The notes under the pieces were generated by a model, which made no database searches, had not been told where the DNA came from, and was given only the letters and a program-made list of their open reading frames with translations. Shown piece after piece: positions 3,954 to 63,645 of a stretch of DNA of 64,000 bases. Position numbers and translations under genes: made by a program. Source of the DNA: Malaciobacter molluscorum LMG 25693 (GTDB taxonomy: Bacteria; Campylobacterota; Campylobacteria; Campylobacterales; Arcobacteraceae). The stretch covers positions 2,232,001-2,296,000 of the forward strand of contig NZ_CP032098.1 of NCBI RefSeq assembly GCF_003544935.1. Direction: 5' to 3'. Positions within the stretch are counted from its first letter, which is position 1, and each line of letters begins with the position of its first letter.

Positions 3954-3965
3954 TTTAACCTCTTA

Positions 3966-7296: not shown

Positions 7297-7333
7297 AAAA
7301 TACCCTATCTTATGTTTTTATATTTAAACAATA

Positions 7334-7349
7334 TGCAAAAACTATTCCT
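7334..7349 (-). promoter_or_regulatory. Sigma-54 promoter for the SIR2-like/clpX unit
   Basis: Minus strand AGGAATAGTTTTTGCA, GG-N10-GC with exact spacing, 38 bp upstream of the SIR2-like start. It is nearly identical to the promoters at 5228 and 27178. Confidence 0.83.
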
Positions 7350-7358
7350 TTAATTTAT

Positions 7359-9409: not shown

Positions 9410-9500
9410 AATATTTGTCCTTCATTATTAAGTGCTATATTTTTATTATAAATCAATTTTATAGTTAATATAGAGCTTTCTTGTTTATTAATTATTCATT

Positions 9501-9716
9501 TTAGTTAGAATTTTTTATCTTTTTACAGATCTCTTCTTTTGGTAATTTTTTAATTCCAGGTTTTATCCACCAAATTTCTCCATTTGATAATTCTACTTCT
9601 CCACCCCAATTACTCTGTTCATCAAACTGTAATGATTCAATTGTCTCTTCCATATCTTTTTTTGCAAAATAAAAAAATATTTTTCCTTCTTGTTCTCGTA
9701 ACATTACTTTTGCCAT
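9501..9716 (-). CDS. nifT: Nitrogen fixation protein NifT/FixU
   Basis: The 71-residue protein matches NifT in size and pattern: KVMLRE at the start, YFAKKDMEETI, SNWGGEVELSNGEIWWI and a Pro-rich end (KLPKEE). NifT is a small, widely conserved nif protein without a settled function, often next to nifK. Here it is not next to nifK but ends an operon with an FAD oxidoreductase and an aldo/keto reductase. SD-like GGAGAAAA precedes the ATG. Confidence 0.85.
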   Translation of the reverse strand: MAKVMLREQEGKIFFYFAKKDMEETIESLQFDEQSNWGGEVELSNGEIWWIKPGIKKLPKEEICKKIKNSN

Positions 9717-9726
9717 TTTTTCTCCT

Positions 9727-11376: not shown

Positions 11377-11378
11377 AT

Positions 11379-12491
11379 TTATACTTTATATATTAAATCA
11401 TATTTTACTCTTGGTACTGATTTAATCTTTGTTATTTCTAAATTACTTTTTATGTGAACTGGTACTTTTGAAGCAAAAAGTGAACTTATTATTCCAGGTG
11501 TTGAACGAACAAATTGTAATGCAAGTTGAATATCATTTTCTAATACCATTTTTGAATCAAGTAAATATCCTATTTCTGATTTAAAAGAGCGCTTAAAAAG
11601 ATTCATTTGAAGTAAAGAAGAACTAGAAATAAGCCCAAGTCCTAATCTATGAGCTGCTTGAACAACTGTACATCTTTCTTTTGTTACTATTTGAGTTGGT
11701 ATTGTATAAATAGAAGTTTTTGCTAAATTAAAAGGTGTTTGAATATATTTAAACTTATGATCTCTTCCTGCAATTTTAACTGCAATCTTTACTAAATCTT
11801 CTAAATTTATATGCTCCTTGGAATTCTCATCATTTATTAAAGCATTCCAAACAGCAACTCCATAATATTTGATTTGTCCAGAATTAACCATCTTCTCAAA
11901 TCTTTCAAATACTTTCTCTATTTTTTTTAAGAATTTTTTATATCCAAGTGAAATTAGTTGCATTTCTGGATTATGCAAAAAATATATATCAATTGAATCA
12001 AGTTGTAGGTTATTAAGTGATTTTTTACAAGACCATTCTAGAAAAGCAGGAGTCATGCAGTGTTGGTCTAATTCTATATCTTCTCTTGTTGCAAGTTTTT
12101 TACTTATAATATTATCTTCTATCCATGTATAAGGATTTTTCGGAAAAGGATAATCAAGTTGAATAAATCCAGCTTTTGAACAAACAATTAACTCCTCTCT
12201 TGATATTTCACCATCATTTATGAGCTCTTTTATAGCTATTGCAATCTCTTTTTCACTTTGACCATATCTGTAATTACTTGCTGTATCTATTAAATTTATT
12301 CCATTTCTTATAGCTTCTTTTACACCTTCAATATAATGAAACACATAATTTTCTTCTTTATAAGGTTCTTTATTAAAAGTTCCAAGTCCTAATTTTGAAA
12401 ATATTAAATCATTATGTTTTATATAAAAATCTTGATAGTGTGAAAACTTTTTTGCATAATTTAATGTTGATTGAGCTGTTGCATAAGACAT
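11379..12491 (-). CDS. Aldo/keto reductase, nif-associated
   Basis: The 370-residue AKR-superfamily protein has the catalytic tetrad visible in order: Asp in NLIDTASNYRYG, Tyr in the same motif, Lys in IVCSKAGF and His in IYFLHNPE. The C-terminal part has the NADPH-binding pattern RSTPGIISSLFASKV. It is first in a unit with the FAD oxidoreductase (2-bp gap) and nifT, and a sigma-54 promoter lies 39 bp upstream. Substrate unknown; the promoter puts it in the nif regulon. Confidence 0.88.
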   Translation of the reverse strand: MSYATAQSTLNYAKKFSHYQDFYIKHNDLIFSKLGLGTFNKEPYKEENYVFHYIEGVKEAIRNGINLIDTASNYRYGQSEKEIAIAIKELINDGEISREELIVCSKAGFIQLDYPFPKNPYTWIEDNIISKKLATREDIELDQHCMTPAFLEWSCKKSLNNLQLDSIDIYFLHNPEMQLISLGYKKFLKKIEKVFERFEKMVNSGQIKYYGVAVWNALINDENSKEHINLEDLVKIAVKIAGRDHKFKYIQTPFNLAKTSIYTIPTQIVTKERCTVVQAAHRLGLGLISSSSLLQMNLFKRSFKSEIGYLLDSKMVLENDIQLALQFVRSTPGIISSLFASKVPVHIKSNLEITKIKSVPRVKYDLIYKV

Positions 12492-17791: not shown

Positions 17792-17805
17792 ACTTACTTT
17801 TTATC
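17780..17805. terminator. Bidirectional terminator between MOSC and Tle1-like genes
   Basis: Perfect 12-bp arms GATAAAAAGTAA and TTACTTTTTATC with a 2-nt centre, spanning both convergent stop codons. It has A/T tracts on both strands. Confidence 0.65.
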
Positions 17806-20395
17806 CTCTTGTAAACTTCTCTCCAGATGCAGTATAGATAACTCTTTTTCCATAAAAATCAGTTTTGTCTTTATTCTTAAAAGAGGCTTTATTTACAAAA
17901 TCAGCATATTTTGAAGAGTGATGAATATAATTATCTTTTAGTTTTTTATATTTATCATCATCATTTTTAAACTCTCCTTTTACTTCCAATACTTTATATA
18001 TACTAGTTAAAAAATCATCTTTTTTTAAACTATATAAAGATAAAGAACCAAAAGGAACAATCTCTAAAGCTTCTTTTTTACCCAAATGTTTGCCATTTGT
18101 CATATCTTTATAAATAGCTCTTTCATACATAATTTTCAATGTTACATATTCATATTTATTTAAAATCTCTTTTTTATGCATATATAAAAAAAGAACTGGT
18201 TGAAGCATGGATGTTCCGGTAATCACTTCAGGAACAATACAATAATAAAATCCATCTTCATTATTTTCTTTTATATCATCTTTTAATTTTACTTTTGAAA
18301 TATTATTTGTTTTTAGCCAATTATATTTTTTATTCCATGCTATCAATATATTTTCTATATTTATTGGGATTTTATCATAGTCTTTAACATATCTTTTAGT
18401 TAATAAAGTAGTTTCACTAGAAGTGTTATATCCGCCTCCAACATCAGAATGAGATCCAGGAATAAAATACTCTTCAAACTTTTTACCACCACTTAAAGTT
18501 ATTCCATCTGTTTTTTGTAACTCTTGATTTTTATCTAAAAAAATAGAGTATGCATCAAAGTTATACCGAAACTCATCACTTGCCATAAGATGAACAACTT
18601 GACCTATTTTTTCATCATTCCCATCTTTAAAAAAGTTTAAATTTAAAGACTCAAAATCATTTGACTGTTTTATACCAAAGTGAGGAACAGTATCATAAAT
18701 ACCTACAAATCTAAAGTTTATAAACTCTATTGAAATTTTTTCTTTTCCATAATATGGATTTTTTATTCTACTTCTACCTGATCCATAATATCTATTTTGT
18801 GTATTTAAAGGGTTATAATATCTCTTCCCATCAATAAATACGATACCATTACTTCCAAAAAAAGGTGTAAATATATTTTCACCTTTTTTCATTTTGATAC
18901 TATACTTATCATCACTTTTTTCTGAATTATTCAAAATTGAACAGATAAAATGCCTAGCAGTTGCTGCACCTCTACTAAAACCAAAAACATCAAAATATAA
19001 TTTAGTTATATAACTAATTTTTGATGCTCTAAATTGTTCTGCTATTTTTATACAAGTATAAATAATATGAGCTTCTATTCCAGTCTTATCTTTTGTTAAA
19101 AACTTTTCTCCACCAAGACCAGAACCAAATAAAACAGAATCTTCTTCATAGCCTTTTTGAATAAAAGGATTATTTGTTCCTGCACCACTTTCATACAATT
19201 TAAATCTAGTTGTTGAAAGAATAGTTTTATCCCTTTTTACATCTGCTCCATCATAAAGATTATACAATCTACTAATATTTGTCTCACCATTTACAAAACT
19301 ACTATCTTCACTATCATCAACTAATATATTTTCTCTTATAAATTCTTCTCTATTTTTTTCTTCACTTGTATTTAACTTTTTTTTCACTTCAACAAAATAT
19401 TCAAATACTTTTCTTGCATGATTTGCTTTTAGACTTTGAAGTAACTCTTTTTCTTCTGTTTCTAAATTTGAATCTTCATCAAAATATCTTATCTCTTTTT
19501 TTGCTTTATCAATTTGAGAAATCAATAAAAGTAAAACCTCATCATTCATTTTCGGATTTGGTTCTGATACTATATATTCTTGAATAGTATCATACATTTT
19601 AATATCAGGTTTTGTCTCTAAATCTCTACCTTTATTCTCTTCAATATACTTAGCTGGTTCTTCTAAAAATTCTACATAATTCATATAAAAATTTATATTA
19701 TAAATATTATTATTTGTTCCATCAAAAAAAACTCCATATTCAACTACTACTTCAGGCATATATGAAGCTGTAATATTTTCTTCATAAATAATTACTTCAA
19801 GCTCTTTTTTGGGCGAGTCTTTTTTTATATTATATACATAAGGAACAGATACTATTATATAAGCACTCTCTTTTTCTAGATTTCTTATTTGTTCTTCATT
19901 TATTATCTTTTGACAACTATCTTTATTAAAAACTAAAGTTCCTATGCTTTTAGTTTCACCTTTTTGTTTTAAACTATCTTCTAATTTTTGATTATAAGCA
20001 TAGGTATAACCTTTTGCTTTTAAAACGCTTCCATAAGAATTTGCATTATATAAACGCAAAGAAGTCAAATTTACTATTTTTTTATCTATATTTATCTTAG
20101 TTAAAGCAGTTAAATCATCTTTAGTTAGATTTTCACTCTCTTTTGTTATAGCTTGTGTTAAATATTTACTATATTCATCTTTTACTTTATTTAATATTTT
20201 CTTTTTATCTTTTTCATCTTTATTTACTTTTTCACTCTCTTCTTCAGTTACAATAATATAAGCACATCTAGTTCTAATGGAAGAGTCATAATCATCTATA
20301 TTTTTATTAGTCTCTTCAATAGAGTATCTATAAAAATGTGCACCTTCACTCTCTTTAAAAAAAACTTCTCCTATTGTTATATCATTACTATTCAT
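17801..20395 (-). CDS. DUF2235 lipase, Tle1-like type VI effector candidate
   Basis: The 864-residue protein has the DUF2235 alpha/beta-hydrolase core: VFFDGTNNN near residue 225, nucleophile motif FGFSRGAATARHF near 470, and PGSHSDVGGGY near 648 carrying an acidic/His catalytic region. This order matches Tle1-family phospholipase effectors of type VI secretion. A beta-rich N-terminal part of about 220 residues precedes the core. Its start overlaps an upstream Sel1-repeat lipoprotein gene by eight bases. No T6SS structural genes or VgrG are in the window, so delivery is inferred. It has no sigma-54 promoter and looks like cargo inside the nif region. Confidence 0.8.
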   Translation of the reverse strand: MNSNDITIGEVFFKESEGAHFYRYSIEETNKNIDDYDSSIRTRCAYIIVTEEESEKVNKDEKDKKKILNKVKDEYSKYLTQAITKESENLTKDDLTALTKINIDKKIVNLTSLRLYNANSYGSVLKAKGYTYAYNQKLEDSLKQKGETKSIGTLVFNKDSCQKIINEEQIRNLEKESAYIIVSVPYVYNIKKDSPKKELEVIIYEENITASYMPEVVVEYGVFFDGTNNNIYNINFYMNYVEFLEEPAKYIEENKGRDLETKPDIKMYDTIQEYIVSEPNPKMNDEVLLLLISQIDKAKKEIRYFDEDSNLETEEKELLQSLKANHARKVFEYFVEVKKKLNTSEEKNREEFIRENILVDDSEDSSFVNGETNISRLYNLYDGADVKRDKTILSTTRFKLYESGAGTNNPFIQKGYEEDSVLFGSGLGGEKFLTKDKTGIEAHIIYTCIKIAEQFRASKISYITKLYFDVFGFSRGAATARHFICSILNNSEKSDDKYSIKMKKGENIFTPFFGSNGIVFIDGKRYYNPLNTQNRYYGSGRSRIKNPYYGKEKISIEFINFRFVGIYDTVPHFGIKQSNDFESLNLNFFKDGNDEKIGQVVHLMASDEFRYNFDAYSIFLDKNQELQKTDGITLSGGKKFEEYFIPGSHSDVGGGYNTSSETTLLTKRYVKDYDKIPINIENILIAWNKKYNWLKTNNISKVKLKDDIKENNEDGFYYCIVPEVITGTSMLQPVLFLYMHKKEILNKYEYVTLKIMYERAIYKDMTNGKHLGKKEALEIVPFGSLSLYSLKKDDFLTSIYKVLEVKGEFKNDDDKYKKLKDNYIHHSSKYADFVNKASFKNKDKTDFYGKRVIYTASGEKFTRG

Positions 20396-48041: not shown

Positions 48042-48371
48042 TTTTTCTTTAAGTTCCGAACTATATCTGAAAAAAATAAAAATAGCAAGTTTTTATCTAA
48101 TAAGTTTAAAATTATCAATTTTAACTTTCTTAATATTATCAAACATCTTCAATCATTTACATATTTTGAAAAAGAAGTTAATTTAAAAGATGAACAATCA
48201 AAAGCATATTTTAGTATAAATAAAAAACTAAGAGATGAAAAAAACGTCCTTAAAATCAAACTACATAAGATTAATATTATTAAAGAAGGACACAAAAGAA
48301 TGTATGAGATATTTACTTATTTGAGGAAAGTTATTTATATAAATAACTATCTATTCTCTATCTCAACTTAA
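48042..48371 (+). pseudogene. Open-frame remnant without start codon
   Basis: The 445-bp spacer after the cold-shock gene contains a 109-codon plus-strand frame with no usable start. It reads as protein-like (KDEQSKAYFSINKKLRDEKN, KRMYEIFTYLRKVIYINNY) and ends inside the 3' end of the convergent NACHT gene. It may be the tail of a gene truncated when the accessory region was acquired. Family unknown; chance cannot be excluded in such AT-rich DNA. Confidence 0.3.
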
Positions 48372-50804
48372 CCCAAGCCATTTTTCATCAAGTTTAGCTA
48401 ACAAAGTTTCTGCTTCTTCATTCTTACATCTATATTCAACTTCATTTTCCCATGCTCCAATAAATATACATCTGGAAGTGTCAATTTTATTTATATATTT
48501 TACTTCTCCCCATTGAGTTTTAAATTTTTGTAAAGATGAATTTATAGCATCTCGTTCTATTCTGTCAGTATATTTTATTTTTTTTAGAATTAAGTAATCA
48601 TGAACTCTAATATATATTAAAAAAATGAGAAGAAATAGAAAAGACAAACCTCCTATTATTAAAAATATAGATGTAAATTTATTTACAATGATTCCGACTA
48701 CAATTGTAATAGAAACACCCACAATAACAACTCCAATAAATTTAATTAACTTAACTAGGAATTCTCCGAATTTTTTTAAAGTTATTGATTTTAATATACA
48801 ATAAAATGACTGTATTTTTATAAAGAATTCAAACCAAGGAAAAATTAAAATTATTACAATTAAATAAATTATATAATTTAAATTAATAGAATTTATATCT
48901 AATAAAAATAACCTATTAAAGTCTGGAGTATTTAATAAGAATATTGCGATAGTAGCATAAATAGTAAATAATAACTCATAATTTCGTTCTATTTTAAATC
49001 CAATTAACTTTGAAACTAAGTCACATATAAATATCAAAAAAATATAAATTAATGCATATAAAGGAGCTAAAATTGCTAAAAGAACAGAACTAACAGCCTG
49101 TATGTAAATGCTAAAGATTTTAAATTTTATTATTTTGTAAATAGAAGCAAATGCATTTGAAACTTTTAATGAAAAAATTATATTTTTACGCTTTAAAATT
49201 AAAGTTAAAGAATCAATTGAAAATAAATATTTTTTTATTTTTGTTGATAATTCTTTACTAATTGAGCCTAAATGTCTGCATGATTTAAAAGATTCTTCCT
49301 TAATCCACATATTTTTAATATTCAAGACATTTGTTATTACTTCATCAATATCATTATCACTTAATAATCCAACTGCTTCTACATTAAACTTTTTATGTAA
49401 AATTCCTTTTTTACTTTCAATCTGTTCTTTTAAGAAAATCTTTAAATCAAGCTCAAAATCTTTCAAACATTCTCTTCTTGATCTAAATGCCTCTTTTAAA
49501 AATCTAAGGCAATGTATCGATCTTGAATATTGTTCATCACCTTGATTTACATTTTCATCTTCAATCTTTTTAACTTCATTCCAACAATAATTTGCAATTT
49601 CAACTACCTTTTTTTTTGTTGAGAGTTCACAATACATTATTAAAGAATCTCTCCATTTAGTATCTTTGGGTATTGATTCCAACATTATATATTCAATATC
49701 TTTATCAATTAAATTTATTGCTACAAAATATTCATGAAACCTTCTATGTACAAAACTAAATAACTCATTATCACCTCTTCCTAATCTTATAATTTTTGAA
49801 TACTTCAATTTACTAATTATTGCTGAAATAATTTCTTTTGAATATTCTTTTTCTAGGATTTTATAAACTAAATTAACTGGAATTTCTAATCCATAATTAT
49901 AATCTTTATACATTTTATTTGATATATGTTTTACTGCATTAAGAACTACTGCATTAAGAACTACTTCATTATTTACTATCTTAGTATTTGGTCTTGAAAG
50001 AGATGAGTTAAGTTGCTTTTCAATAAAATCTTTATAAATATAACTTTGATTTTCTGGTAATTTATTGTGCTTTTCTAAATAGGAACTAATTAATGCTGCA
50101 GTAAATGGATTTCTTGAAAGAGATAATAATTCAGGTTTATCCTTAAATAACTTTGTTATTAATTCTTCTTTCTCATCAATTCTTTTCTGCATAATTTCAA
50201 TAATTTTATCATCATCTAAAGGTTTTATTTCATATAAAGTATCTGTATTAAATTCTTTTGTAGGTTTTCTAAAAATACGAGAAGATAATAATCCTTTTGA
50301 TTCATGTCCATATGTTAAAAACTTATAAATTACACTAGATAATTCTTTTATAAGCCATGAAGAATCTTCTTCATCAAGAACTGCAGGAATTTCATCAAAT
50401 GAATCTAAAACTAAAAATAAATGACCATTTTCTAGTAAATCATCAAAATAATTATCAATAAATTTAGTAGTAAAATCATTATCAAGTCTTTTTATTATAT
50501 TTTCTTTAATAAATTTATGAAGTCCTTTTGCAGATGGAGGATTATTTTCATCCCACTTTTTGTCTATAATCCATTCTTTTAAATTTATATAAATAGGAAT
50601 TCTATTTGTTTTTTCAACATCATCAAGTAAATCAATACATAACTTACATAAAGATGTACTTTTACCTGAACCAGGATCACCTAGCACTAAAAAAGCTTTA
50701 TCTTTTTTATTTTTTTTCATTGCAATATTAAGTTTAGTAATTTCTCTTTTATAAATATTATTTAATTTCAACTTCAGCTTCAAGTGGAACAAAATAAGAA
50801 TCAT
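48363..50804 (-). CDS. NACHT-domain STAND NTPase with C-terminal membrane segments
   Basis: The 813-residue protein has a NACHT P-loop FLVLGDPGSGKST (residues 42-50 cover the loop), Walker B LFLVLDSFDEIP near 138-149, SSRIFRKPTKEF and a winged-helix region (VHRRFHEYFVAIN). The C-terminal third has several hydrophobic helices (about 560-740) and a soluble tail. Many bacterial NACHT proteins are antiphage sensors, with membrane parts acting as pore or anchor. It may begin at ATG 50804 or 50720, or be the 3' part of a frameshifted gene with the upstream membrane frame. Confidence 0.83.
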   Translation of the reverse strand: MILILFHLKLKLKLNNIYKREITKLNIAMKKNKKDKAFLVLGDPGSGKSTSLCKLCIDLLDDVEKTNRIPIYINLKEWIIDKKWDENNPPSAKGLHKFIKENIIKRLDNDFTTKFIDNYFDDLLENGHLFLVLDSFDEIPAVLDEEDSSWLIKELSSVIYKFLTYGHESKGLLSSRIFRKPTKEFNTDTLYEIKPLDDDKIIEIMQKRIDEKEELITKLFKDKPELLSLSRNPFTAALISSYLEKHNKLPENQSYIYKDFIEKQLNSSLSRPNTKIVNNEVVLNAVVLNAVKHISNKMYKDYNYGLEIPVNLVYKILEKEYSKEIISAIISKLKYSKIIRLGRGDNELFSFVHRRFHEYFVAINLIDKDIEYIMLESIPKDTKWRDSLIMYCELSTKKKVVEIANYCWNEVKKIEDENVNQGDEQYSRSIHCLRFLKEAFRSRRECLKDFELDLKIFLKEQIESKKGILHKKFNVEAVGLLSDNDIDEVITNVLNIKNMWIKEESFKSCRHLGSISKELSTKIKKYLFSIDSLTLILKRKNIIFSLKVSNAFASIYKIIKFKIFSIYIQAVSSVLLAILAPLYALIYIFLIFICDLVSKLIGFKIERNYELLFTIYATIAIFLLNTPDFNRLFLLDINSINLNYIIYLIVIILIFPWFEFFIKIQSFYCILKSITLKKFGEFLVKLIKFIGVVIVGVSITIVVGIIVNKFTSIFLIIGGLSFLFLLIFLIYIRVHDYLILKKIKYTDRIERDAINSSLQKFKTQWGEVKYINKIDTSRCIFIGAWENEVEYRCKNEEAETLLAKLDEKWLGLS

Positions 50805-52533: not shown

Positions 52534-52941
52534 CTATTTAAACTTCATTAAATGTGCAATTAGCTCGTCAATTTTATCTTCAATTATTTCATCATTTTTA
52601 TCTAAACATTTATTATATGCTCTTTTAAACATTGCAAAAACAGCTTCATCAATATTTAAACTATTCTCTTTTTTTTCATCTAATGAATGAATATTACCTG
52701 TTTGAGATAAATTACCATGATTATCTGTAATTGTTTGGTTATTAACATTTGAATTAATATCACTGAATATCTCACTATAAATTCCAAGTTCTCTACATTT
52801 CTTTTTTATAGCACTTAATGAATTTCTTGATTTCCAATTTGAAATAGTTTGTTGAGATATTTTTAATTTTTCAGCTAGATCAATATTATTATTTACCTGA
52901 AAATATCTATATAGTTCATAAATAATGTCTTCTGCTGTCAT
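52534..52941 (-). CDS. CI/Cro-like HTH repressor with NNQxIxDNHGN motif
   Basis: The 135-residue protein has an N-terminal HTH, NNNIDLAEKLKISQQTISNWKSRN (about residues 17-40), of the phage CI type. The middle linker reads NNQTITDNHGNLSQTGNI (about 68-85), shared with the downstream protein. A helical C-terminus follows. It diverges from the AlpA-like genes across a 303-bp spacer with repeated AAAATAYACA sequences, a position typical of a lysogeny-type repressor of the element. Confidence 0.8.
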   Translation of the reverse strand: MTAEDIIYELYRYFQVNNNIDLAEKLKISQQTISNWKSRNSLSAIKKKCRELGIYSEIFSDINSNVNNQTITDNHGNLSQTGNIHSLDEKKENSLNIDEAVFAMFKRAYNKCLDKNDEIIEDKIDELIAHLMKFK

Positions 52942-52958
52942 AATTTACCTTTTTAAAC

Positions 52959-53028
52959 AAAATATACACAAAATAAACAAAATTAAGTATAATATAAGAA
53001 AATATACATTAATATTCAAAATACACAT
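52959..53028. promoter_or_regulatory. Repeated AAAATAYACA operator-like sequences
   Basis: AAAATATACACA (52959-52970), AAAATATACATT (52999-53010) and AAAATACACATT (53018-53028) lie 20-90 bp upstream of the HTH gene. Direct repeats this close to a repressor start suggest autoregulation. Confidence 0.45.
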
Positions 53029-53155
53029 TTTATAATGTTTATTTCACACTTTAACACAAATTATAGTGTATTAAGCATTTTAAATACATTAATTAGAAGT
53101 TTTGACTACTAATTAGTGAAAAGTTCTTTAAAAATCTAATGTTTAAGGTAGTCCC

Positions 53156-53181
53156 CACCTTGAGAGGGTTAGGTCAAGGTG
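53156..53181 (+). repeat. CACCTTGA inverted repeat in the divergent spacer
   Basis: CACCTTGA and TCAAGGTG separated by GAGGGTTAGG, about 64 bp before the first AlpA-like gene. It is GC-rich for this region. Possible regulatory hairpin, small RNA or operator. The rest of the 52942-53244 spacer shows only AT-rich sequence and the repeats noted above. Confidence 0.5.
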
Positions 53182-53244
53182 AGCCACCGATTAACAAGTG
53201 CTCTAAACTTACAATTATTATAAGTTATTCAATGAGGAATAAAA

Positions 53245-53469
53245 ATGAGAGAAGAATTAATAAATAAATATTTAAATGACATTGACAATTTAGGGTTTGA
53301 TAAAACACTAACATTAACATCAAAACAAACTGCTCAAGTACTTAATGTATCAGTTAGAACTTTAGAAAATTGGAGAAAGGATAATAATATTAATTTACCT
53401 TTCAAAAATGTAGGAAAATCATATATTTACACAAAACGTGATGTAGCAGAGTTTTTAGCAAAGGAATAA
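53245..53469 (+). CDS. Excisionase-like HTH protein
   Basis: The 74-residue protein has a MerR-like winged helix: LTSKQTAQVLNVSVRTLENWRKD and a wing with VGKSYIYTKRDVAEFLAKE. Such small proteins control excision or early transcription of mobile elements. GAGGAATAAAA precedes the ATG. It lies 2 bp before a second HTH gene. Confidence 0.82.
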   Translation: MREELINKYLNDIDNLGFDKTLTLTSKQTAQVLNVSVRTLENWRKDNNINLPFKNVGKSYIYTKRDVAEFLAKE

Positions 53470-53471
53470 TT

Positions 53472-53678
53472 ATGAATGAACCAAACGATAAATTTATAAA
53501 GATAGATGAAATAGTAGAAATTACTGGAATTGGTAAAACAAAAGTAAATGAATTAATAGCAAAAGGTAAATTAATTAAACCAATAATAATCGAAGGATTT
53601 AACAACAGACTCTTTTCCTACAACGAACTTCAAGATTGGATTGAAGCTCAAAAACAAAAAAGATCTAAAACAGCATAA
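53472..53678 (+). CDS. AlpA-like HTH regulator
   Basis: The 68-residue protein has the AlpA-type pattern: IKIDEIVEITGIGKTKVNELI for the HTH, GKLIKPIIIEGFNNRLFSYNELQDWIEAQ for wing and tail. AlpA proteins in P4-like and satellite islands activate integrase and excision genes. It is coupled to the upstream excisionase-like gene. Confidence 0.8.
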   Translation: MNEPNDKFIKIDEIVEITGIGKTKVNELIAKGKLIKPIIIEGFNNRLFSYNELQDWIEAQKQKRSKTA

Positions 53679-53807
53679 GCTCCCTCTTTTATGTCGCCAA
53701 ACAGTTAAAAGAGAGAGCTGTTAAAACGGATTAAGGCTTTAACTGAGTATATCTTATCAATACTTAGTTTTTAAAATTATTAAATTTAATAAGATGAAAG
53801 GCAATGA

Positions 53808-54392
53808 ATGTCTGAAAATAAAAAATTTTTCTGGCTCAAACTCAAAAATGACTTTTTCGACCGAGATGAAATTAAGATAATTGAAAATCAACAAAATGGA
53901 AAAGATTACATAATTTTCTACATGAAGTTACTACTTAAAAGTGTAGAAAGTGATGGAAAACTTTTTTTCAGAGATACAATTCCATATTCACCTGAAATGT
54001 TAGCAACAATTACTAATACATCAATCGATACGGTGAAGGTAGCTGTTAGTCTGTTTATTGAACTTCAACTAATGGAAAGATGGGATGATGGTACATTATT
54101 CATGATTGAAACCGAAAACATGGTCGGTAGCGAATCAAAATGGGCGAAATATAAAAGGATTGAAAGAGAGAAAAAAAAGGAAATTGGACAATGTCCAAAG
54201 CAGTCCAAAAAAATTCCAATAGAGATAGAGAAAGAGTTAGAGATAGAAAATAAAGAAACTGACAATAGCGAATACACAAACTGGGACGCTTTAATTACAA
54301 TGTATCAAGCTGAAAAAGAAAAAAAGAAAAAACCTAGAGCATACACGCAGAAACCAAGAGCAATTAAAAAAGAAGAAGAAATTAAAATATAA
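53808..54392 (+). CDS. Phage replisome organizer-like protein
   Basis: The 194-residue protein has FFWLKLKNDFFDRDEIKIIENQQNGKDYIIFYMKLL at its N-terminus and TIPYSPEMLATITNTSIDTVKVAVSLF, the pattern of the phage replisome organizer N-terminal winged-helix domain. A highly charged, Lys-rich C-terminus follows. It would load helicase at the element's origin. No primase or helicase is seen nearby. Confidence 0.78.
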   Translation: MSENKKFFWLKLKNDFFDRDEIKIIENQQNGKDYIIFYMKLLLKSVESDGKLFFRDTIPYSPEMLATITNTSIDTVKVAVSLFIELQLMERWDDGTLFMIETENMVGSESKWAKYKRIEREKKKEIGQCPKQSKKIPIEIEKELEIENKETDNSEYTNWDALITMYQAEKEKKKKPRAYTQKPRAIKKEEEIKI

Positions 54393-55488: not shown

Positions 55489-55787
55489 AATTTTCAGAAT
55501 TAGAACTAAAAGTAAGAGATATATTTAAAGGGTTCCCTAAAATTAGTTTAAGTGAAAATCAGAAGGTTGATGCAATAGAAATATTTGTGTCTTCTAGCAC
55601 TCTTATTCACATTGATTTGAATGAAAAATTAATAAGAATTAAAAAGAACAAAGAACACATTTTTGTCAAAATAATAAATTCTATTAATCCTATTCCTAGT
55701 TTTAATTACCTACTTATTAATCGAAGAATAAAAAAGGTTAAACACTTATTAGAAAAAGAGAATTGTGAGTTTCACGATATTATGTAG
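55485..55787 (+). CDS. Unknown island protein truncated by the transposon
   Basis: The 100-residue frame is unrecognised (ELELKVRDIFKGFPKISLSEN, KVDAIEIFVSSSTLIHIDLNE). Its last residues (Asp-Ile-Met) and stop codon come from the left terminal inverted repeat of the transposon at 55775, so its original 3' end has been displaced. Coupled to the preceding gene by a four-base overlap. Confidence 0.65.
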   Translation: MKFSELELKVRDIFKGFPKISLSENQKVDAIEIFVSSSTLIHIDLNEKLIRIKKNKEHIFVKIINSINPIPSFNYLLINRRIKKVKHLLEKENCEFHDIM

Positions 55788-55798
55788 CAAACGCACAA
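55775..55798 (+). repeat. Left terminal inverted repeat of the IS1595-type transposon
   Basis: 24 bp beginning CGATATTATGTAGCAAA, matching the complement of 60353-60376 except for one base. It contains the stop codon of the truncated gene. Confidence 0.85.
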
Positions 55799-55860
55799 GA
55801 CTTTCAACCTAATTTTCGGCTAAAATTTCTTTTGATTTTTATAATTTAAAGGAGTAAAAA

Positions 55861-56304
55861 ATGGCAGACACTCATGTTATTTCAGCACTAACAACAAAAA
55901 GAGGAGAACTCTTAGGTTCTATTAGACATTACAAACAACTAATTACCTCTTTAGATAAAGATTTAGCTACTATTGATGCAACTATAAGAATTTTTGAACC
56001 TGATTATAAATTTGATTCTACAAAAATTGTTAATAAGCATAGAAGAAATACTTACTTTAATAATGGTGAAGCTAAGATTTTAATACTTGATACTTTAAGA
56101 GTTAAAAGTGAGCCAATAAGAACTGATGACTTAAGTGATATTGTTGCTTCTAAAAAAGGTTTATTCTTTGAAAATGATTATGAAACTAGGTCTTTTAGAA
56201 AAGCTATAATCTCAGCTCTTAATAATCTTGAAAAAGATAATTTAGTTCAAAGGGTTAGTAAAGAGGGATTAGTGATTACTTGGAAGATTAAAAAGTTAAA
56301 TTAA
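55861..56304 (+). CDS. Coiled-coil/winged-helix passenger of the IS1595-type element
   Basis: The 147-residue protein has an N-terminal coiled coil (about 8-45, ELLGSIRHYKQLITSLDKDLATI) and a C-terminal winged-helix-like region (GEAKILILDTLRVKSEPIRTDDLSDIV, AIISALNNLEKDNLVQRVSKEGLVITWKI). It converges on the transposase gene with a four-base overlap. Similar small genes accompany some IS1595-family transposases. Role unknown, perhaps regulation or target choice. AAAGGAG precedes its ATG. Confidence 0.72.
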   Translation: MADTHVISALTTKRGELLGSIRHYKQLITSLDKDLATIDATIRIFEPDYKFDSTKIVNKHRRNTYFNNGEAKILILDTLRVKSEPIRTDDLSDIVASKKGLFFENDYETRSFRKAIISALNNLEKDNLVQRVSKEGLVITWKIKKLN

Positions 56305-57317
56305 GCTCCTAATCTTTCAGCAACTCTTTTATTTCCTTGCCAGTACCCACAAAACTCATTAGATACTAAAGAACTTAAACATTTAGATAAAATATCATCA
56401 AAGATAGCTTTATTATTCATTCTTCTTGTATCTTCTCTATATGCAATTTCATTGGCATAATTAGATAAATATAAATTTCCAATTTTATGACATTGACCAT
56501 ATTGCATTCTTCTAAATCTTGCATTATAAGATTCACTTTGGTTATTGTTCTCTCCATAGATACCTGAATATTCAATTTGATGGTTAACTCTGTTCATATC
56601 ATAATGAGCTGTTAAATCATCATAAGCATTTGATTCATCAGTATGGATACTTGAACCTGATTTTATATGTTTATAGGCAATTTCTCTAACTTCTTTTGAG
56701 TTTTCAGATTTTAAAACAAAAGTTTTAGTTTTAACTGCTCCAACAAATTCACTTTTTTCATCTGCTCTTTGTCTTAAAGAAATAATAACTCTTTTATTTG
56801 GTTTATGAACTTTTCTTCTATCAACTCTTTTATCTAATTGATTTTTAGGTCTAACATAATGATTAACATAAACACCATCCATTTCACAAGTTCCCTCAAA
56901 CTTTTCATCACTATTATAATCCATTAAAGATTCTCTAATTTTATGAGATAAAACCCAAGCTGTTTTATATTGAACATCTAAATCTCTTGATAACTGTAAG
57001 GCACTAATACTTTTTACAGCATTAGTAAATAAAACAATTGCTAAAAGGTAAATTTGTAAAGGTTTTTTATGACTAGCAAAGATAGTTCCACTTGTTACAC
57101 TAAAAGTATGAAAACACTCTTTACATCGGTATTGAAATCTTGTTTTTAAAAAGTAATGTTTTTCTAAGCTTCCACAACAAGGACAAACTGGTTCACCATT
57201 TGTTGAACTCCATCTAACATTTTTAAACATTTCAAAGGCTTCCATATCTGACATCATCATAATTTTTACCATTGATAACTCTCTTGCTTTTGCTGATAGT
57301 AGAAAATGTTGTGCCAT
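56301..57317 (-). CDS. IS1595-family (ISXO2-like) transposase
   Basis: The 338-residue transposase has an N-terminal zinc ribbon (CPCCGS and CKECFHTFSVTSGTIF) and an ISXO2-type DDE domain (CEMDGVYVNHYVRPKNQ, HTDESNAYDDL, SGIYGENNNQSESYNARFRRMQYG). Full-length and without visible interruptions, so it may be active. Both terminal repeats are present. Confidence 0.94.
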   Translation of the reverse strand: MAQHFLLSAKARELSMVKIMMMSDMEAFEMFKNVRWSSTNGEPVCPCCGSLEKHYFLKTRFQYRCKECFHTFSVTSGTIFASHKKPLQIYLLAIVLFTNAVKSISALQLSRDLDVQYKTAWVLSHKIRESLMDYNSDEKFEGTCEMDGVYVNHYVRPKNQLDKRVDRRKVHKPNKRVIISLRQRADEKSEFVGAVKTKTFVLKSENSKEVREIAYKHIKSGSSIHTDESNAYDDLTAHYDMNRVNHQIEYSGIYGENNNQSESYNARFRRMQYGQCHKIGNLYLSNYANEIAYREDTRRMNNKAIFDDILSKCLSSLVSNEFCGYWQGNKRVAERLGA

Positions 57318-57485
57318 TTTTTGTTCCTTATGTTTTATTTATTTTAAATTATATCGAAAATGATTATATTTGTCAATAGGTAAAGTATTTATTTATAATT
57401 ATTAATGTATATATTTATAATTAATATTGACAATAAATATAATTTTAGATAAAATACTAGTAAGAATAAAAATTAAGGTTGATTT

Positions 57486-57704
57486 TTGGAAAACATTGAC
57501 GATTTACCTAAAAGACTTATTAAATCAGAACTTCAAAGAAGAGGTTTAAAAGTTAAAGATTTAGTTGAAAGATTAAAGCCTTATGGGGAAGATTTAACCG
57601 AACTATCATTTAATAATAAAATGAGTAGAGGTGGTTTTAATGCAGTGTTTTTTCTAAAATGTATGAAAGCACTTGGGGTTAAAAATCTAAATTTGGAAAT
57701 ATGA
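57486..57704 (+). CDS. DUF6471-like small regulator
   Basis: The 72-residue protein starts at TTG and has LIKSELQRRGLKVKDLVERLKPYG and FNNKMSRGGFNAVFFLKCMKALGV, a DUF6471-like helix-turn-helix pattern. It precedes the methyltransferase in the same direction and could act as a controller of the restriction-modification genes. TAAGG lies 8 nt before the TTG. The start codon is not certain. Confidence 0.65.
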   Translation: MENIDDLPKRLIKSELQRRGLKVKDLVERLKPYGEDLTELSFNNKMSRGGFNAVFFLKCMKALGVKNLNLEI

Positions 57705-57825
57705 TAAGGTTTAGGTATTATTTTATTTTTTTAAATGGCAATAAGAAATTTATTACATATTGTAATAAATAATCTATAAATTAAATACTTAGATTACAAT
57801 ATGATATTATTTTAAAGAGGGTATT

Positions 57826-58983
57826 ATGGTAGCAACAATAAAAACAAAAGAGAATAGATTGTCTCCCATTCTAAAATGGGCGGGTGGTAAAGAACAAGAA
57901 CTTAAATATATACATCCATGCTTACCTAAAAAGATAAATAATTATTATGAGCCTTTTATTGGTGGGGGAGCGGTATATTTTTCACTTAATGCTAATGAAA
58001 TGTTTATTAATGACAAATCACATGAATTAATTAATTTATACAATGCTATATCTACTCAAGATGATAAATTTTTTAATGTTGTTAATGAAATGATACATAA
58101 TTGGGAACTATTACAAAATATAATTATTAATAATGATAAAGATTTTATACAAAAATATAAACAGTTTTCTGAAAATGAAATTGATGATGATAAAGTTAAA
58201 AACTGGGTGACTTCATTTGTTTTAAAACATCATGATGAATTCAATGGAATGTTTGATACAAATTTTAATGTTAATATAGAAAATTTTTTGAAAGAAATAA
58301 GAAAAAATATTAATAATAAAATGAAAAGAATGAAAAAAATTGAACTTGAAAAAGGTAAACTTCCTGATAATGATATATTAGACAATATGGAAAGTGCTTT
58401 AAAAAGTGCTTTTTATATGCACTTTAGATATTTATATAATAATATTGAAAAATATAATATAGAACATAGTTTTGCAGTTGCAATATTTTTCTTTATTAGA
58501 AATTTTGCGTATAGTGGTATGTTTAGATATAACAAAAGTGGTGGTTTTAATGTTCCTTATGGTGGTATAGGCTATAACAGAAAAAACTTATCAAAAAAAG
58601 TAGATTATTTAAAAACAGAAGAATTAGTAGAGCATTTAAATAAAACTACAATTGATAATTTAGATTTTGAAGATTTTTTCAAAAAAAATAAACCAAAAAA
58701 AGATGACTTCATTTTTTTAGACCCACCATATGATAGTGAATTTAGTACTTATGCTCAAAATGAATTTACTAGAAATGACCAATCAAGGTTAGCAAACTAC
58801 TTAATAAACGATTGTAAAGCTAATTGGATGATGGTTATTAAAAATACTGATTTTATTTACGAGCTATACAATAAAGAAGGAATTTATATGACTTCTTTTG
58901 ATAAAAAATATTTAGTTAGTTTTCAAAATAGAAATGATAAAAATGTTGAACATTTATTAATAACAAATTATAAAATAAATTAA
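57826..58983 (+). CDS. D12-class (Dam-family) DNA adenine methyltransferase
   Basis: The 385-residue enzyme has LSPILKWAGGKEQEL at the start, motif I YEPFIGGGAVYFSL, MFINDKSHELINLY, and catalytic DPPY (IFLDPPYDSEF), the order of Dam-type N6-adenine methyltransferases. It is longer than Dam (about 270-280) because of a roughly 100-residue helical insert between the first and second halves. It is likely the protective half of the cassette; target sequence unknown. Confidence 0.9.
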   Translation: MVATIKTKENRLSPILKWAGGKEQELKYIHPCLPKKINNYYEPFIGGGAVYFSLNANEMFINDKSHELINLYNAISTQDDKFFNVVNEMIHNWELLQNIIINNDKDFIQKYKQFSENEIDDDKVKNWVTSFVLKHHDEFNGMFDTNFNVNIENFLKEIRKNINNKMKRMKKIELEKGKLPDNDILDNMESALKSAFYMHFRYLYNNIEKYNIEHSFAVAIFFFIRNFAYSGMFRYNKSGGFNVPYGGIGYNRKNLSKKVDYLKTEELVEHLNKTTIDNLDFEDFFKKNKPKKDDFIFLDPPYDSEFSTYAQNEFTRNDQSRLANYLINDCKANWMMVIKNTDFIYELYNKEGIYMTSFDKKYLVSFQNRNDKNVEHLLITNYKIN

Positions 58984-59016
58984 TTCTTGGTATTATATAT
59001 CCTAAAAGGAGTTATA

Positions 59017-59328
59017 ATGCCAAGAATAAGTGAAAATGATTTAATAATACCGACATTAAAGCTATTAAATACAGCAACTAATAATACTTTAACAACAACT
59101 GATTTAATTCAAAAATTAACAGTAGTGATGAAACCTTCAAAAGAAGATTTAGTAATTTTAAAAGATAGAAGTGATTCTAAATTTTCTCAAATTGTAAGAA
59201 ATCTAAAATCTCATGACACATTTAATGAATTAGGTCATGCTCAATATACTCCACCTTCATCAAAAGGACAAAGTGGAAGTTTTACAATAACAGAAAAAGG
59301 TAAGCAATACCTTCAATCAATACAATAA
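59017..59328 (+). CDS. Small protein related to the N-terminal domain of the adjacent HNH nuclease
   Basis: About 103 residues. MPRISENDLIIPTLKLLNTATNN, SKEDLVILKDRSDSKFSQIVRNL and FTITEKGKQYLQS line up with the first 100 residues of the downstream HNH nuclease (LQLPSLYLINLKNGA, GEDLDILDNRTDDKFSQIVRNL, FITDKGKQFL). It looks like a winged-helix domain on its own. An ATG at 58987 is in frame but AAAGGAG precedes 59017. A DNA-recognition or regulatory partner is inferred. Confidence 0.75.
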   Translation: MPRISENDLIIPTLKLLNTATNNTLTTTDLIQKLTVVMKPSKEDLVILKDRSDSKFSQIVRNLKSHDTFNELGHAQYTPPSSKGQSGSFTITEKGKQYLQSIQ

Positions 59329-59340
59329 ATAGGGTTTATT

Positions 59341-60123
59341 ATGACAAGAATATTAGAAGAAGACTTACAGCTTCCTTCACTTTACTTAATAAATTTAAAA
59401 AATGGTGCAATTACAACAACAGAACTATCAAAACTACTTCGTAATCTTTTAAATCCAAAAGGTGAGGACTTAGATATATTAGATAACCGAACAGATGATA
59501 AATTTTCTCAAATTGTAAGAAATTTAACTGGTACTGAAAGACCATTTGTTAAAAATGGATTTATTTATAGAGAAAGTGGACGAAATAAACCTTTGTTTAT
59601 TACAGATAAAGGTAAACAATTTTTGAAAGATAATTATGAATTTGTGCAATATCTATTTACAAATGACTTTAATTTTAATGATATGATTGAAAGTTTTAAA
59701 AGTATGAATTTGCCTGATAATAAAAATAAAAAAATTAAATTTCTAGATGAAAATATTACTATTGCGGAGGGGCAAAATAAAATTATTGAAACAAAATCTT
59801 ATAAACGTTCAAATAAGTTAAGAAATATGGCAATTGAATATTATACTAAAGATGGAAGAATAAAATGTAAAGCTTGTTGCTTTGATTTTGAAGATTTTTA
59901 TGGAGATTTTGGGAAAGGATTTATAGAAATACATCACCAAAAACCAGTTTTCATGTTTGATGAAAATGAATTAGAAAAAACAATTGAAGAAGCACTAGAT
60001 AATGTTATTCCAGTATGTCCAAATTGTCATAGAATGATACATAAAAGAAGAACAAATTATTTATCATTTGAAGAGTTGAAAAATTACATAAATACAGATT
60101 TGAGTTTTTGTAGTGAACAATAA
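59341..60123 (+). CDS. HNH endonuclease with N-terminal winged-helix-like domain
   Basis: The 260-residue protein has an N-terminal domain (1-100) like the small protein upstream, a linker, and a C-terminal HNH nuclease (about 175-250): CKACCFDF, EIHHQKPVFMF, DNVIPVCPNCHRMIHKRR, giving both zinc cysteine pairs and the catalytic His residues. It lies 12 bp after the small gene. Together with the methyltransferase it forms a plausible type II restriction-modification pair. Cut site unknown. Confidence 0.87.
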   Translation: MTRILEEDLQLPSLYLINLKNGAITTTELSKLLRNLLNPKGEDLDILDNRTDDKFSQIVRNLTGTERPFVKNGFIYRESGRNKPLFITDKGKQFLKDNYEFVQYLFTNDFNFNDMIESFKSMNLPDNKNKKIKFLDENITIAEGQNKIIETKSYKRSNKLRNMAIEYYTKDGRIKCKACCFDFEDFYGDFGKGFIEIHHQKPVFMFDENELEKTIEEALDNVIPVCPNCHRMIHKRRTNYLSFEELKNYINTDLSFCSEQ

Positions 60124-60337
60124 AACTAGAACCATTGAATATAACAAACAAACTCACAAAATAACACTCTGTACTTATACAGAGGATGAATTCTTAGAAT
60201 CAGAAATAGATATTACAGAACAAGTATCTACTTTGGTTCTTGAAAAGATTTATGATGATTACGATTTAGATGATGGAGATGAACTTCTAATTACTAAGAA
60301 AAAATCTTTAAAAAATCATACAAAAATTAAGCTATAA
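60113..60337 (+). CDS. Small acidic protein overlapping the nuclease gene
   Basis: The 74-residue frame starts at GTG, overlaps the HNH gene by 11 bases and ends 15 bp before the right terminal repeat. It is beta-rich with an acidic stretch (YDDYDLDDGDELL) and a basic tail. Not recognised. Coding use resembles its neighbours, so it is probably a real but minor cassette gene. Confidence 0.5.
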   Translation: MNNKTRTIEYNKQTHKITLCTYTEDEFLESEIDITEQVSTLVLEKIYDDYDLDDGDELLITKKKSLKNHTKIKL

Positions 60338-60352
60338 ATTTTTTTGATATTT

Positions 60353-60376
60353 TTGTGCATTTGCTACATAATATCG
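60353..60376 (-). repeat. Right terminal inverted repeat of the IS1595-type transposon
   Basis: Complement of the left repeat at 55775 with one C/T difference. It lies 8 bp before the stop of the next gene. Confidence 0.85.
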
Positions 60377-61046: not shown

Positions 61047-62237
61047 TCAGTTCTCAAATAAATCAGGTATAAGATAGCTAGACAACTTACTATTTAATTT
61101 AAATCTTAATTTTCCTCTAGGACTATCTGTTTGTAAGTAATCTTCTTCTAGTAACTCTTTTACAATAGATATGGCTTTAGGTGCACTTACTCCTAAGATT
61201 TCTTGTGCATCACCTCTAGTTACTTCTCCATGAACCAATAAATATTCTAATAGTTTATTTGAATTTTTTGGTAGAGGCTTGACATTATGAATTAGTTTTT
61301 TTTGTGAAAGCTCAACATAAGCTTTTATCTTTGTTGCCATAGAATCTAATTTTAAATATTCACTCATAAATAATACTTGATCTAATGCAATATCTAACAT
61401 AAATTCTAAAAAGTTTTCAAGTCCTTTTAATGTTAATGGTCCTCTTCCATCATTATATCCACTAAACTTTTCATCTGCTAAAGACAGAAATTTCCTATAC
61501 TCTTTTTGATTTCTAGCAAGTCCTCTTGATATATTCCATAATCCATAACCTTGGATATCAGAGTGATACAATAAGTAATCTAAATAAAGTCTAGATACTC
61601 TTCCATTTCCATCATAAAATGGATGTATATATGTTAATCTATGATGAGAACATAAAGCATAGATTAGTTTCATTGTGTGTGTAGAGTTCCTAGATTGATT
61701 ATATAACATCTCAAACTCATTGAAGCAAGCTATTAATTCATCACTTTGTGGTGGGATATGTTCTCCAACTTGAACATAACCTTCTCTTAGTTTACCAGGT
61801 ACCATTTCTACTTCTAATTCACCATTTTTAATATTTAGTGCATACTTCATTTCTTCTTTACTATAAAATTCTTTATGAATCTCTAGTATTTTTTCTAATG
61901 AATATGGTTTAGTTGAAATATCTAGTGTTGTTTCTAAAAATTTTTGTACTTCGATATGTACCAATGACAATTGTTGCATACTTTTCTTTTTATCATCTTG
62001 TGAAAATTCATTTTTCATTGCACGTTCAATGTCAATAGGATGTGTACCTTCTGATTCAATTTTATTTGAGTAATAAGAGTTTATAGTCCGTAAATTTTCT
62101 TTTATTGCATTAACTATATGAATATTTAAATTTCCTGTTAACTTAGCACTCTCAATTATAATACGTTCCGCTTTATTAAGTATCTCTTGTTTTAAAGGAT
62201 AATGTTCAGTTTGTGGTATAATTGGAGTTGTGTACAT
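61047..62237 (-). CDS. Fic-family AMP-transferase with C-terminal winged helix
   Basis: The 396-residue protein has the Fic active-site loop HPFYDGNGRVSR near residues 206-217, an N-terminal inhibitory-helix motif of the SxxIEG type (YSNKIESEG, residues about 73-81) and a C-terminal winged-helix tail (GEVTRGDAQEILGVSAPKAISIV). The usual Fic layout: self-inhibited AMPylator. With the winged helix it may control its own or another gene. Target unknown. Confidence 0.92.
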   Translation of the reverse strand: MYTTPIIPQTEHYPLKQEILNKAERIIIESAKLTGNLNIHIVNAIKENLRTINSYYSNKIESEGTHPIDIERAMKNEFSQDDKKKSMQQLSLVHIEVQKFLETTLDISTKPYSLEKILEIHKEFYSKEEMKYALNIKNGELEVEMVPGKLREGYVQVGEHIPPQSDELIACFNEFEMLYNQSRNSTHTMKLIYALCSHHRLTYIHPFYDGNGRVSRLYLDYLLYHSDIQGYGLWNISRGLARNQKEYRKFLSLADEKFSGYNDGRGPLTLKGLENFLEFMLDIALDQVLFMSEYLKLDSMATKIKAYVELSQKKLIHNVKPLPKNSNKLLEYLLVHGEVTRGDAQEILGVSAPKAISIVKELLEEDYLQTDSPRGKLRFKLNSKLSSYLIPDLFEN

Positions 62238-62280
62238 TCGTAACCTTTTTATAAAAAAAGCATAGACTATCTATACTTTT

Positions 62281-62300
62281 TTTTAAATTCTTTTTTAAAT
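62281..62300. repeat. 20-bp direct repeat, copy 1
   Basis: TTTTAAATTCTTTTTTAAAT occurs here and at 62371-62390, 90 bp apart, in the spacer between the Fic and integrase genes. Possible operator or integrase arm sites; low complexity limits confidence. Confidence 0.4.
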
Positions 62301-62370
62301 CTTTTAGTAGATTAAATATACCATAAAATAGATATTTATAAGACTACTTTGTTAAATTATATTATAAAAT

Positions 62371-62390
62371 TTTTAAATTCTTTTTTAAAT
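62371..62390. repeat. 20-bp direct repeat, copy 2
   Basis: Exact copy of 62281-62300, 29 bp after the integrase stop on the minus strand. Confidence 0.4.
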
Positions 62391-62418
62391 AAAGAAAATT
62401 GATACTTATTTGTCAGTT

Positions 62419-63645
62419 TTAAACTATTTTAATATTATCCAACCAATCAGCATACCACTGTATCAGTTCTCTTTTCTCATCAAAATACTTATACTTTGAT
62501 TCTCTATTATAAGCTGCTTTTACTTTGTTTTTCTCTTTATGAGCTAAACAAGCTTCAATAATATCTGAATGAAAGCCATGTTCTTTATATAATTCATGGG
62601 CAATAGTAGAGAACATACTTCTAAAGCCATGAAAAGTGTGTTTATTTTGATAACCTAGCTTATTTAATGTATCAGATAAGGTAGCACCAGAAACTCCTCT
62701 ATCGTTCTTATATGGAGAAGGAAATACGAATCTACTTCTATGTCTTGAGAAAGGCTCTATTTGTTTTAAAATATCAATTGCCTGTTTTGGTAAAGGACAA
62801 ACAAAATCTACTTTCATTTTCATTTTCTCTTTTGGAATTTCCCAAACACCTTTTTCCAGATTAATATCGTCCCAACACATAAGCCTTATGTTTTCACTTC
62901 TTACAAACACATAAGGTATAAGTTTAAATATAAATATAGTACTTATATCACTTTTTAACTTCTCTCCTATGGAATTAATATCTAGTAAAAGTTGTTTTAT
63001 ATCTTTAGGTTCTGTAATTGCTGCTAAATGAGTATCTTTTTTATTAGGAATTAAAACTGACTTTTTATCAATATCGGCAATTATATTATGCTCTATATAT
63101 TCTTTTGTAACAGCAAACATATATATTTTGTTAATCAAGGATAATAATCTATGAGCAGTTTCTATAACCCCTCTACTTTGTAGTTTTTCCAATGCATTAA
63201 TTATATCAACTCTTTTTATATCTTTAATTGCAATATTACCTAACCAATCAGTAATATTTTTTAGTATTCTTTTGTTTTGTGTTATAGTCGCAGTACTTGA
63301 ACTTTTTTTTCTAAGATCAATCCATTCATCAATTACATTTTGTAAAGTTAGTGATTCTGAAGCTTTTTTAATTCTTTTTTCTGATATTGGATTTATATTT
63401 TTTGATAATAATTCTCTAGCAGCATCTCTTTTTTCCCTAGCTTCTTTTAAACCTACTCCTGGATAAACTCCAAAAGACATACTTAAGTTTTTACCACCAT
63501 ATTTAAAATCATATCTCCAATATTTACCACCTGTTGGTCTAACAACTAACCATAAACCTCTACCATCTGGTTTTTTGTATTGTTTATCTTTTGGTTTAAA
63601 GTTTTTTATTTCTGTTGTTGTAAGTGGTTTTGATATTTTTGGCAT
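62419..63645 (-). CDS. Tyrosine site-specific integrase (P4-like)
   Basis: The 408-residue integrase has a DUF4102 N-terminal arm-binding domain (LTTTEIKNFKPKDKQYKKPDGRGLWL), a core-binding domain and a catalytic domain with Arg in VFVRSENIRLM, HxxR in HTFHGFRSMF and the Tyr region AYNRESKYKYF near the end. It lies at the right end of the element, 143 bp from the yciI gene it targets, the usual P4-type position. The remnant at 51376 is a decayed relative. Confidence 0.93.
   Translation of the reverse strand: MPKISKPLTTTEIKNFKPKDKQYKKPDGRGLWLVVRPTGGKYWRYDFKYGGKNLSMSFGVYPGVGLKEAREKRDAARELLSKNINPISEKRIKKASESLTLQNVIDEWIDLRKKSSSTATITQNKRILKNITDWLGNIAIKDIKRVDIINALEKLQSRGVIETAHRLLSLINKIYMFAVTKEYIEHNIIADIDKKSVLIPNKKDTHLAAITEPKDIKQLLLDINSIGEKLKSDISTIFIFKLIPYVFVRSENIRLMCWDDINLEKGVWEIPKEKMKMKVDFVCPLPKQAIDILKQIEPFSRHRSRFVFPSPYKNDRGVSGATLSDTLNKLGYQNKHTFHGFRSMFSTIAHELYKEHGFHSDIIEACLAHKEKNKVKAAYNRESKYKYFDEKRELIQWYADWLDNIKIV

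Follow-up and report, generated by a model that had tools for sequence, protein, structure and literature searches.

An IS1595-family transposon of Malaciobacter molluscorum with a probable restriction-modification cargo, and its relatives

Restriction-modification (R-M) systems have long been seen as behaving like mobile genes, a defined vehicle being seldom observed: mostly plasmids, phages, composite insertion sequence (IS) structures and unexplained insertions have been at hand. Furuta 2010, Khan 2010 (PluTI) and Rochepeau 1997 reportedly deal with R-M systems accompanied by IS copies or with IS-mediated composite structures. It is known separately that R-M genes occur on mobile elements and that IS1595 elements can bear passenger genes. 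To the latter belong MTnSag1 and tISCpe8, both mobilisable, the second with lincomycin resistance as its passenger (PMC5704250). Tn7-like transposons bear diverse defence systems, most commonly R-M (PMC8649781), and R-M genes flanked by IS copies are either composite, with two IS copies, or lab-observed co-integrates (PMC3031569). Here we describe a transposon in a 64,000-nucleotide stretch of Malaciobacter molluscorum LMG 25693 (NZ_CP032098.1, positions 2,232,001 to 2,296,000; the whole stretch is hereafter called the window). It most likely belongs to a clade of IS1595-family transposons that work as carriers of exchangeable R-M systems.

With the IS1595 family (DDE_Tnp_IS1595, NF033547) the element shares the transposase family, short terminal repeats and passengers within one pair of ends; target site duplications (TSDs) are of 8 bp here. 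Unlike tISCpe8 and MTnSag1, it has R-M cargo in a fixed slot where replacement appears to have been repeated, and a conserved accessory gene, encoding a coiled-coil/winged-helix protein, that converges with the transposase gene. Tn7-like transposons use multi-protein machinery and bear mixed cargo, whereas here a single DDE transposase is combined with what is in essence one R-M module (2-5 kb). No TnsB, TnsC or TniQ genes were found inside the ends of the window element, where one transposase gene and the accessory gene are present, which sets it apart from the Tn7-like type. The IS-flanked R-M systems of PMC3031569 likewise depend on IS transposases for movement of R-M genes, but here a single unit transposon with ends of its own encloses these genes. 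As in type II R-M systems of the Dam/DpnM class, a D12-class adenine methyltransferase (MTase) has a nuclease as its neighbour, in this case a winged-helix/HNH protein. No description of an IS1595 group with R-M cargo was found in the open literature searched, a scope excluding ISfinder and the founding IS1595 paper (Siguier 2009). An R-M unit transposon makes questions of mobility and addiction directly testable.

Three copies of the transposon in the host genome

The initial annotation, made from the sequence alone, had proposed an IS1595-family transposon between inverted repeats of 24 bp that differ at one position, beginning at 55775 and ending at 60376. The repeats are exactly as described: the left end (CGATATTATGTAGCAAACGCACAA) and the right end, read as reverse complement (CGATATTATGTAGCAAATGCACAA), agree at 23 of 24 positions. 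The family assignment was borne out by profile matches of the transposase to DDE_Tnp_IS1595 (PF12762, 6.5e-36), to the zinc ribbon PF12760 (1.2e-14) and, above cut-off, to NF033547. The DDE residues are intact; D147, D227 and E262 are invariant in 25 aligned transposase sequences. Features by which the family is recognised are a zinc-ribbon DDE transposase, terminal inverted repeats and TSDs of 8 bp; all are present, the last not at the window copy itself.

The closed host genome (2.80 Mb, Arcobacter family) was searched with the window transposase. Three loci were retrieved, each 100% identical, the sister copies lying at C1:101081-105682 and C1:886369-890970. DNA comparison revealed no difference among the three copies over the full 4602 bp; similarity ends where the repeats end. 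The copy at 886369-890970 is bordered by a perfect 8-bp TSD, GATTTATC. Removal of this insert together with one 8-bp copy restores the reading of a 480-codon transporter gene, and the same region is continuous in three of five congeneric genomes, with 82-90% identity over the insertion point. Since the duplication is perfect and the transporter gene is uninterrupted in congeners, the 24-bp repeats are the true insertion ends. The empty-site comparison, named at the outset as the result that could overturn these ends, thus came out in their favour.

Because the three copies are identical, similarity stops at the repeats, and one copy shows both a TSD and an empty site, the sequences indicate that the whole 4602-bp unit, cargo included, has moved recently. 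This is movement of cargo inside one pair of ends, as expected of a unit transposon, here evidenced by three identical full-length copies and the empty site. Chance repeats were also considered; they are ruled out by the three identical copies, the empty site and the same 24-bp motif bounding relatives with perfect 8-bp TSDs.

Relatives and their cargo

Relatives were collected as loci found with either the transposase or the accessory protein of 147 amino acids (aa), retrieved together with surrounding DNA and screened for ends and TSDs. Beside the window element, both ends were found in 26 loci, with a near-invariant end motif, CGnnATTATGTAGCAnnnGCACAA; ends are more divergent in L042, L043, L044, L098, L106 and the L060 group. 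Eighteen relatives possess a perfect 8-bp TSD (L042, L043, L044, L049, L051, L054, L055, L060, L062, L066, L094, L095, L098, L105, L106, L107, L109 and L111). Parts constant across relatives are the ends, the accessory gene, the transposase and usually the 74-aa gene. It had been suggested initially that the same repeats be sought around other cargos. Such cargos exist and are mostly other R-M systems: in 25 of the 27 two-ended elements, an MTase is accompanied by or fused to a partner of R-M type (modules of type II, type IIG or a type I-like kind, one of them degenerate; Table 1). One genome (G327) harbours two of these elements, whose R-M modules differ (L094, L095).

Table 1. Features of the window element, with positions in the window, and R-M cargo of related elements (TIR, terminal inverted repeat)
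Feature or element	Position	Strand	Description
Complete transposon	55775..60376		4602 bp; TIR at both ends; three base-identical genome copies; empty site and 8-bp TSD at sister copy
Left TIR, 24 bp	55775..55798	+	kept in relatives
Right TIR, 24 bp	60353..60376	-	one mismatch to left; kept in relatives
Accessory protein, 147 aa	55861..56304	+	N-terminal coiled coil, C-terminal winged helix; gene end overlaps transposase gene end
IS1595-family DDE transposase, 338 aa	56301..57317	-	Pfam PF12762/PF12760, NF033547
Divergent promoter region	57318..57485		predicted; consensus match only
DUF6471 small regulator-like protein, 72 aa	57486..57704	+	TTG start; Pfam PF20075 4.7e-21
D12/Dam-class N6-adenine DNA MTase, 385 aa	57826..58983	+	PF02086, TIGR00571 2.2e-50, PADLOC MTase_II 3.5e-61
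Winged-helix protein, 103 aa	59017..59328	+	weak Mrr_N match; paralogue of HNH protein N-terminus
Winged-helix + HNH protein, 260 aa	59341..60123	+	presumed restriction endonuclease; Pfam HNH, just above cut-off
Far-end core protein, 74 aa	60113..60337	+	homologues at same position in most relatives
L049, L054			N4/N6 MTase + partner
L051			two D12 MTases + AlwI-type nuclease
L094			fused D12 MTases + AlwI-type nuclease
L057			EcoRI-type MTase + GmrSD/HNH nuclease
L060, L105, L107			C5/N6 MTase fusion + nuclease
L100			C5 MTase + HaeII-type nuclease
L104, L109			C5 MTase + nuclease
L095			Dam-class MTase + nuclease
L063, L111			N6/N4 MTase + partner; degenerate in L111
L042, L043, L055, L066, L106			type IIG or MTase-specificity proteins
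L048, L098			type I-like M and S
L052 (one end seen)			type III mod + res genes

Comparison of close pairs points to exchange of the cargo. L048 and L049 encode transposases 99.1% identical. Their DNA is 95% identical over the first 285 bp, which hold one end and the 74-aa gene, and 89.5% identical over the final 1.95 kb, which hold the genes for regulator, transposase and accessory protein and the other end, with unrelated middles; no similarity between their cargo proteins was detected when E 1e-5 across half the length was required. Other pairs likewise combine transposase identity with absence of cargo similarity: L063/L104 (95%), L055/L057 (93%), window/L051 (88%) and L054/L094 (86%). Cargo is common to close copies only, such as L060/L105 and L104/L109. 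In the transposase tree, built by a quick method and with some long branches, differing R-M types sit on neighbouring tips. Near-identical transposases with unrelated cargo, together with this tree, therefore suggest that R-M modules turn over more quickly than the transposase evolves. Because blocks of homology flank the unrelated cargo on both sides, elements probably exchange cargo by recombining in the core that they share. If true, a slot almost always filled by an R-M module, and refilled with another at 93-99% transposase identity, would account for fast change of methylation specificity in Campylobacterota.

We propose that the constant part comprises both ends, the gene for the winged-helix accessory protein and the DDE transposase, complemented in most members by a small regulator and the 74-aa far-end gene, and that the slot between the last two would hold an MTase with its nuclease or specificity partner. 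The transposase would act on the 24-bp ends and duplicate 8 bp of target, as the TSDs of the sister copy and relatives and the empty site show, and the R-M cassette travels along with the transposon, as is evident from the three identical copies. On arrival, the regulator probably holds back the nuclease until the MTase protects the genome. The cassette may then defend against phage, stabilise the element through addiction, or both; cargo would be swapped by recombination in shared core segments. Mobility and cargo exchange are here read from sequence evidence; restriction, specificity and benefit we infer. With moderate confidence we extend this to an IS1595 clade dedicated to R-M, with a fixed slot, differing R-M types, recombination and shared small regulators (DUF6471 and others), serving as a general vehicle by which R-M specificities spread and are swapped in Campylobacterota.

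Several loci deviate from the full arrangement. L096, L099, L101, L102, L108, L112 and L113 contain lone accessory genes or single ends, without a transposase, and are apparent relics of decayed elements. In L066, a probable ISAs1-type transposase gene in two pieces (2990-4148) is inserted near one end of the R-M transposon. In the viral contigs searched, no relative of the window transposase was found and one relative of a betaproteobacterial transposase was.

Alternative explanations

Several points weigh against transposons that carry exchangeable R-M systems. There is no wet-lab support for transposition, methylation or restriction. The sample comprises about 27 elements, nearly all from Campylobacterota, which bears on the proposed specialisation. 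MTases of L044, L062 and L165 are recognised by motif alone, and partner proteins of L049, L054, L062, L063 and L106 match no nuclease model. Relatives L048, L057, L063, L100, L104 and L165 lack a TSD, as does the window copy (flanks GAGTTTCA / GAATTCTT). Exceptional cargos are a P63C protein in L129, a Mod fragment with a HigBA-like pair in L133 and, in L053 (one end seen), a Fic protein.

These last three loci would suit an ordinary IS1595 transposon taking up opportunistic passengers, any small cassette fitting the slot and R-M genes being merely common, compact and selectable in Campylobacterota. Sister elements elsewhere (L115, L119) bear other short cargo, and resistance passengers of IS1595 elements are already on record (tISCpe8, MTnSag1; PMC5704250). 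However, the search with the accessory gene, which is blind to R-M, gave an MTase in every two-ended element. The R-M modules span types II, IIG, type I-like and III, a range not accounted for by single inheritance, and the fixed slot adjoins a regulator family that accompanies R-M genes elsewhere too. We regard this explanation as possible but doubtful, and prefer carriage of exchangeable R-M systems.

A different question concerns the R-M pair of the window element itself. The gene content initially claimed (transposase, adenine MTase, HNH protein, controller-like gene and small open reading frames) was confirmed by profile matches. DpnM and Dam are among the PDB matches of the MTase; no close characterised relative from which a recognition site could be taken was found. 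The HNH protein still bears the HNH signature seen in homologues, matches a methyl-directed endonuclease model of PADLOC (1.1e-06) and resembles in sequence the McrA-type structure 6ghc; its AlphaFold model, of low confidence (mean pLDDT 60), was not used. By their profiles, the MTase and the neighbouring HNH protein display the gene arrangement of a type II R-M system. They are a likely cognate type II pair, and no more than likely because the best PADLOC model of the HNH protein is that of a type IV nuclease (mREase_IV), though an MTase adjoins. Such a nuclease is ill-suited to a cognate MTase unless their specificities differ, a further point against the R-M reading. Alternatively, the two would form no cognate restriction pair: the MTase would act alone, in regulation or protection, and the HNH protein would be either a type IV (methyl-directed) nuclease or one with no relation to the MTase. 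Besides the PADLOC model, this is favoured by a 67%-identical MTase (L047), chromosomal in another genome of the same family and outside such an element, whose partner is a winged-helix protein without HNH domain. On the other hand, gene order agrees with type II pairs of other elements, a 39.6%-identical MTase on plasmid pA3H9 adjoins a TdeIII-family type II nuclease, and a nuclease targeting its partner's own methylation would kill the host. Two non-cognate enzymes are judged unlikely, and the cognate pair would restrict DNA and serve as defence. Of the complete ready-made cassette claimed initially, the MTase and nuclease genes stand and strict self-containment does not: the genes for the regulator, the accessory protein and the 74-aa protein are mostly part of the transposon core, exchange being confined to the MTase-nuclease part. 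Residues 1-97 of the HNH protein are 46% identical to the 103-aa protein, a tandem winged-helix duplication with one unit stand-alone (59017-59328) and the other fused to HNH (59341-59631).

An immobile relic multiplied by recombination instead of transposition is very improbable: the missing TSD of the window copy and the imperfect one (6/8) of the copy at 101081 would suit it, but three base-identical copies occupy unrelated sites, a clean TSD and an empty site are documented for one of them, and the transposase is intact. Recombination between the three copies was considered separately; cross-paired flanks, checked by eye for a TSD, gave no matching pair.

Core genes and surroundings

The accessory gene is common to relatives and most bare IS relatives and is nearly always present alongside the transposase. 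The AlphaFold model of its product (pLDDT 87.6) begins with a long helix and ends in a winged helix, with weak winged-helix matches in PDB. The protein may act at the ends or in transposase control. The transposase gene and the regulator/R-M operon are divergent, and near-consensus predicted promoters point apart, with -35/-10 elements at 57376-57348 towards the transposase (12 of 12 consensus positions) and 57427-57455 towards the regulator and R-M genes (11 of 12).

DUF6471, to which the small regulator belongs, is rare: it was detected in 9 of 200 Campylobacterota genomes and in none of 14 control genomes, and no literature on it was found. Four of seven other strong matches (L162, L163, L165, L166) adjoin MTase genes, and because of these neighbours DUF6471 proteins are probably R-M control proteins. 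The 24-bp ends, the accessory gene and DUF6471 provide a sequence handle for discovery of new restriction enzymes. In L162 (7407-7592, with 6132-11667) and L166 (4112-11631), DUF6471 and MTase genes, the latter C5 or IIG-type, adjoin three TniA/TniB/TniQ-like genes identified by eye. This other transposon type may carry R-M cassettes with DUF6471 regulators as well.

Relatives on alphaproteobacterial plasmids, whose transposases are 36-46% identical, possess ends of the same kind together with 8-bp TSDs. Five of them, 1.1-1.7 kb long, contain the transposase alone or, in four cases, together with the accessory gene; three others (2.4-3.0 kb) bear small non-R-M cargo. The simplest history is that a one- or two-gene insertion sequence later acquired a cargo slot.

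Around the transposon (52534-54392 and 61047-63645) are genes for a CI-like repressor, a phage replisome organiser, a Fic protein and a tyrosine integrase (62419-63645). Nesting in an integrative element, as initially claimed, or in a phage satellite is plausible; integrase and phage-like genes are indeed nearby, and ends of the outer element were not found. No tRNA that could provide an attachment site for the integrase is present in the window or the next 13 kb, so the outer element is not delimited. A possible second defence gene of the same island encodes an 813-aa NACHT/STAND NTPase beside small regulators (48363-50804). Elsewhere in the window (17801-20395), the product of a gene beside the nif region, 864 aa long, has a Tle1-like phospholipase domain, known from type VI effectors.

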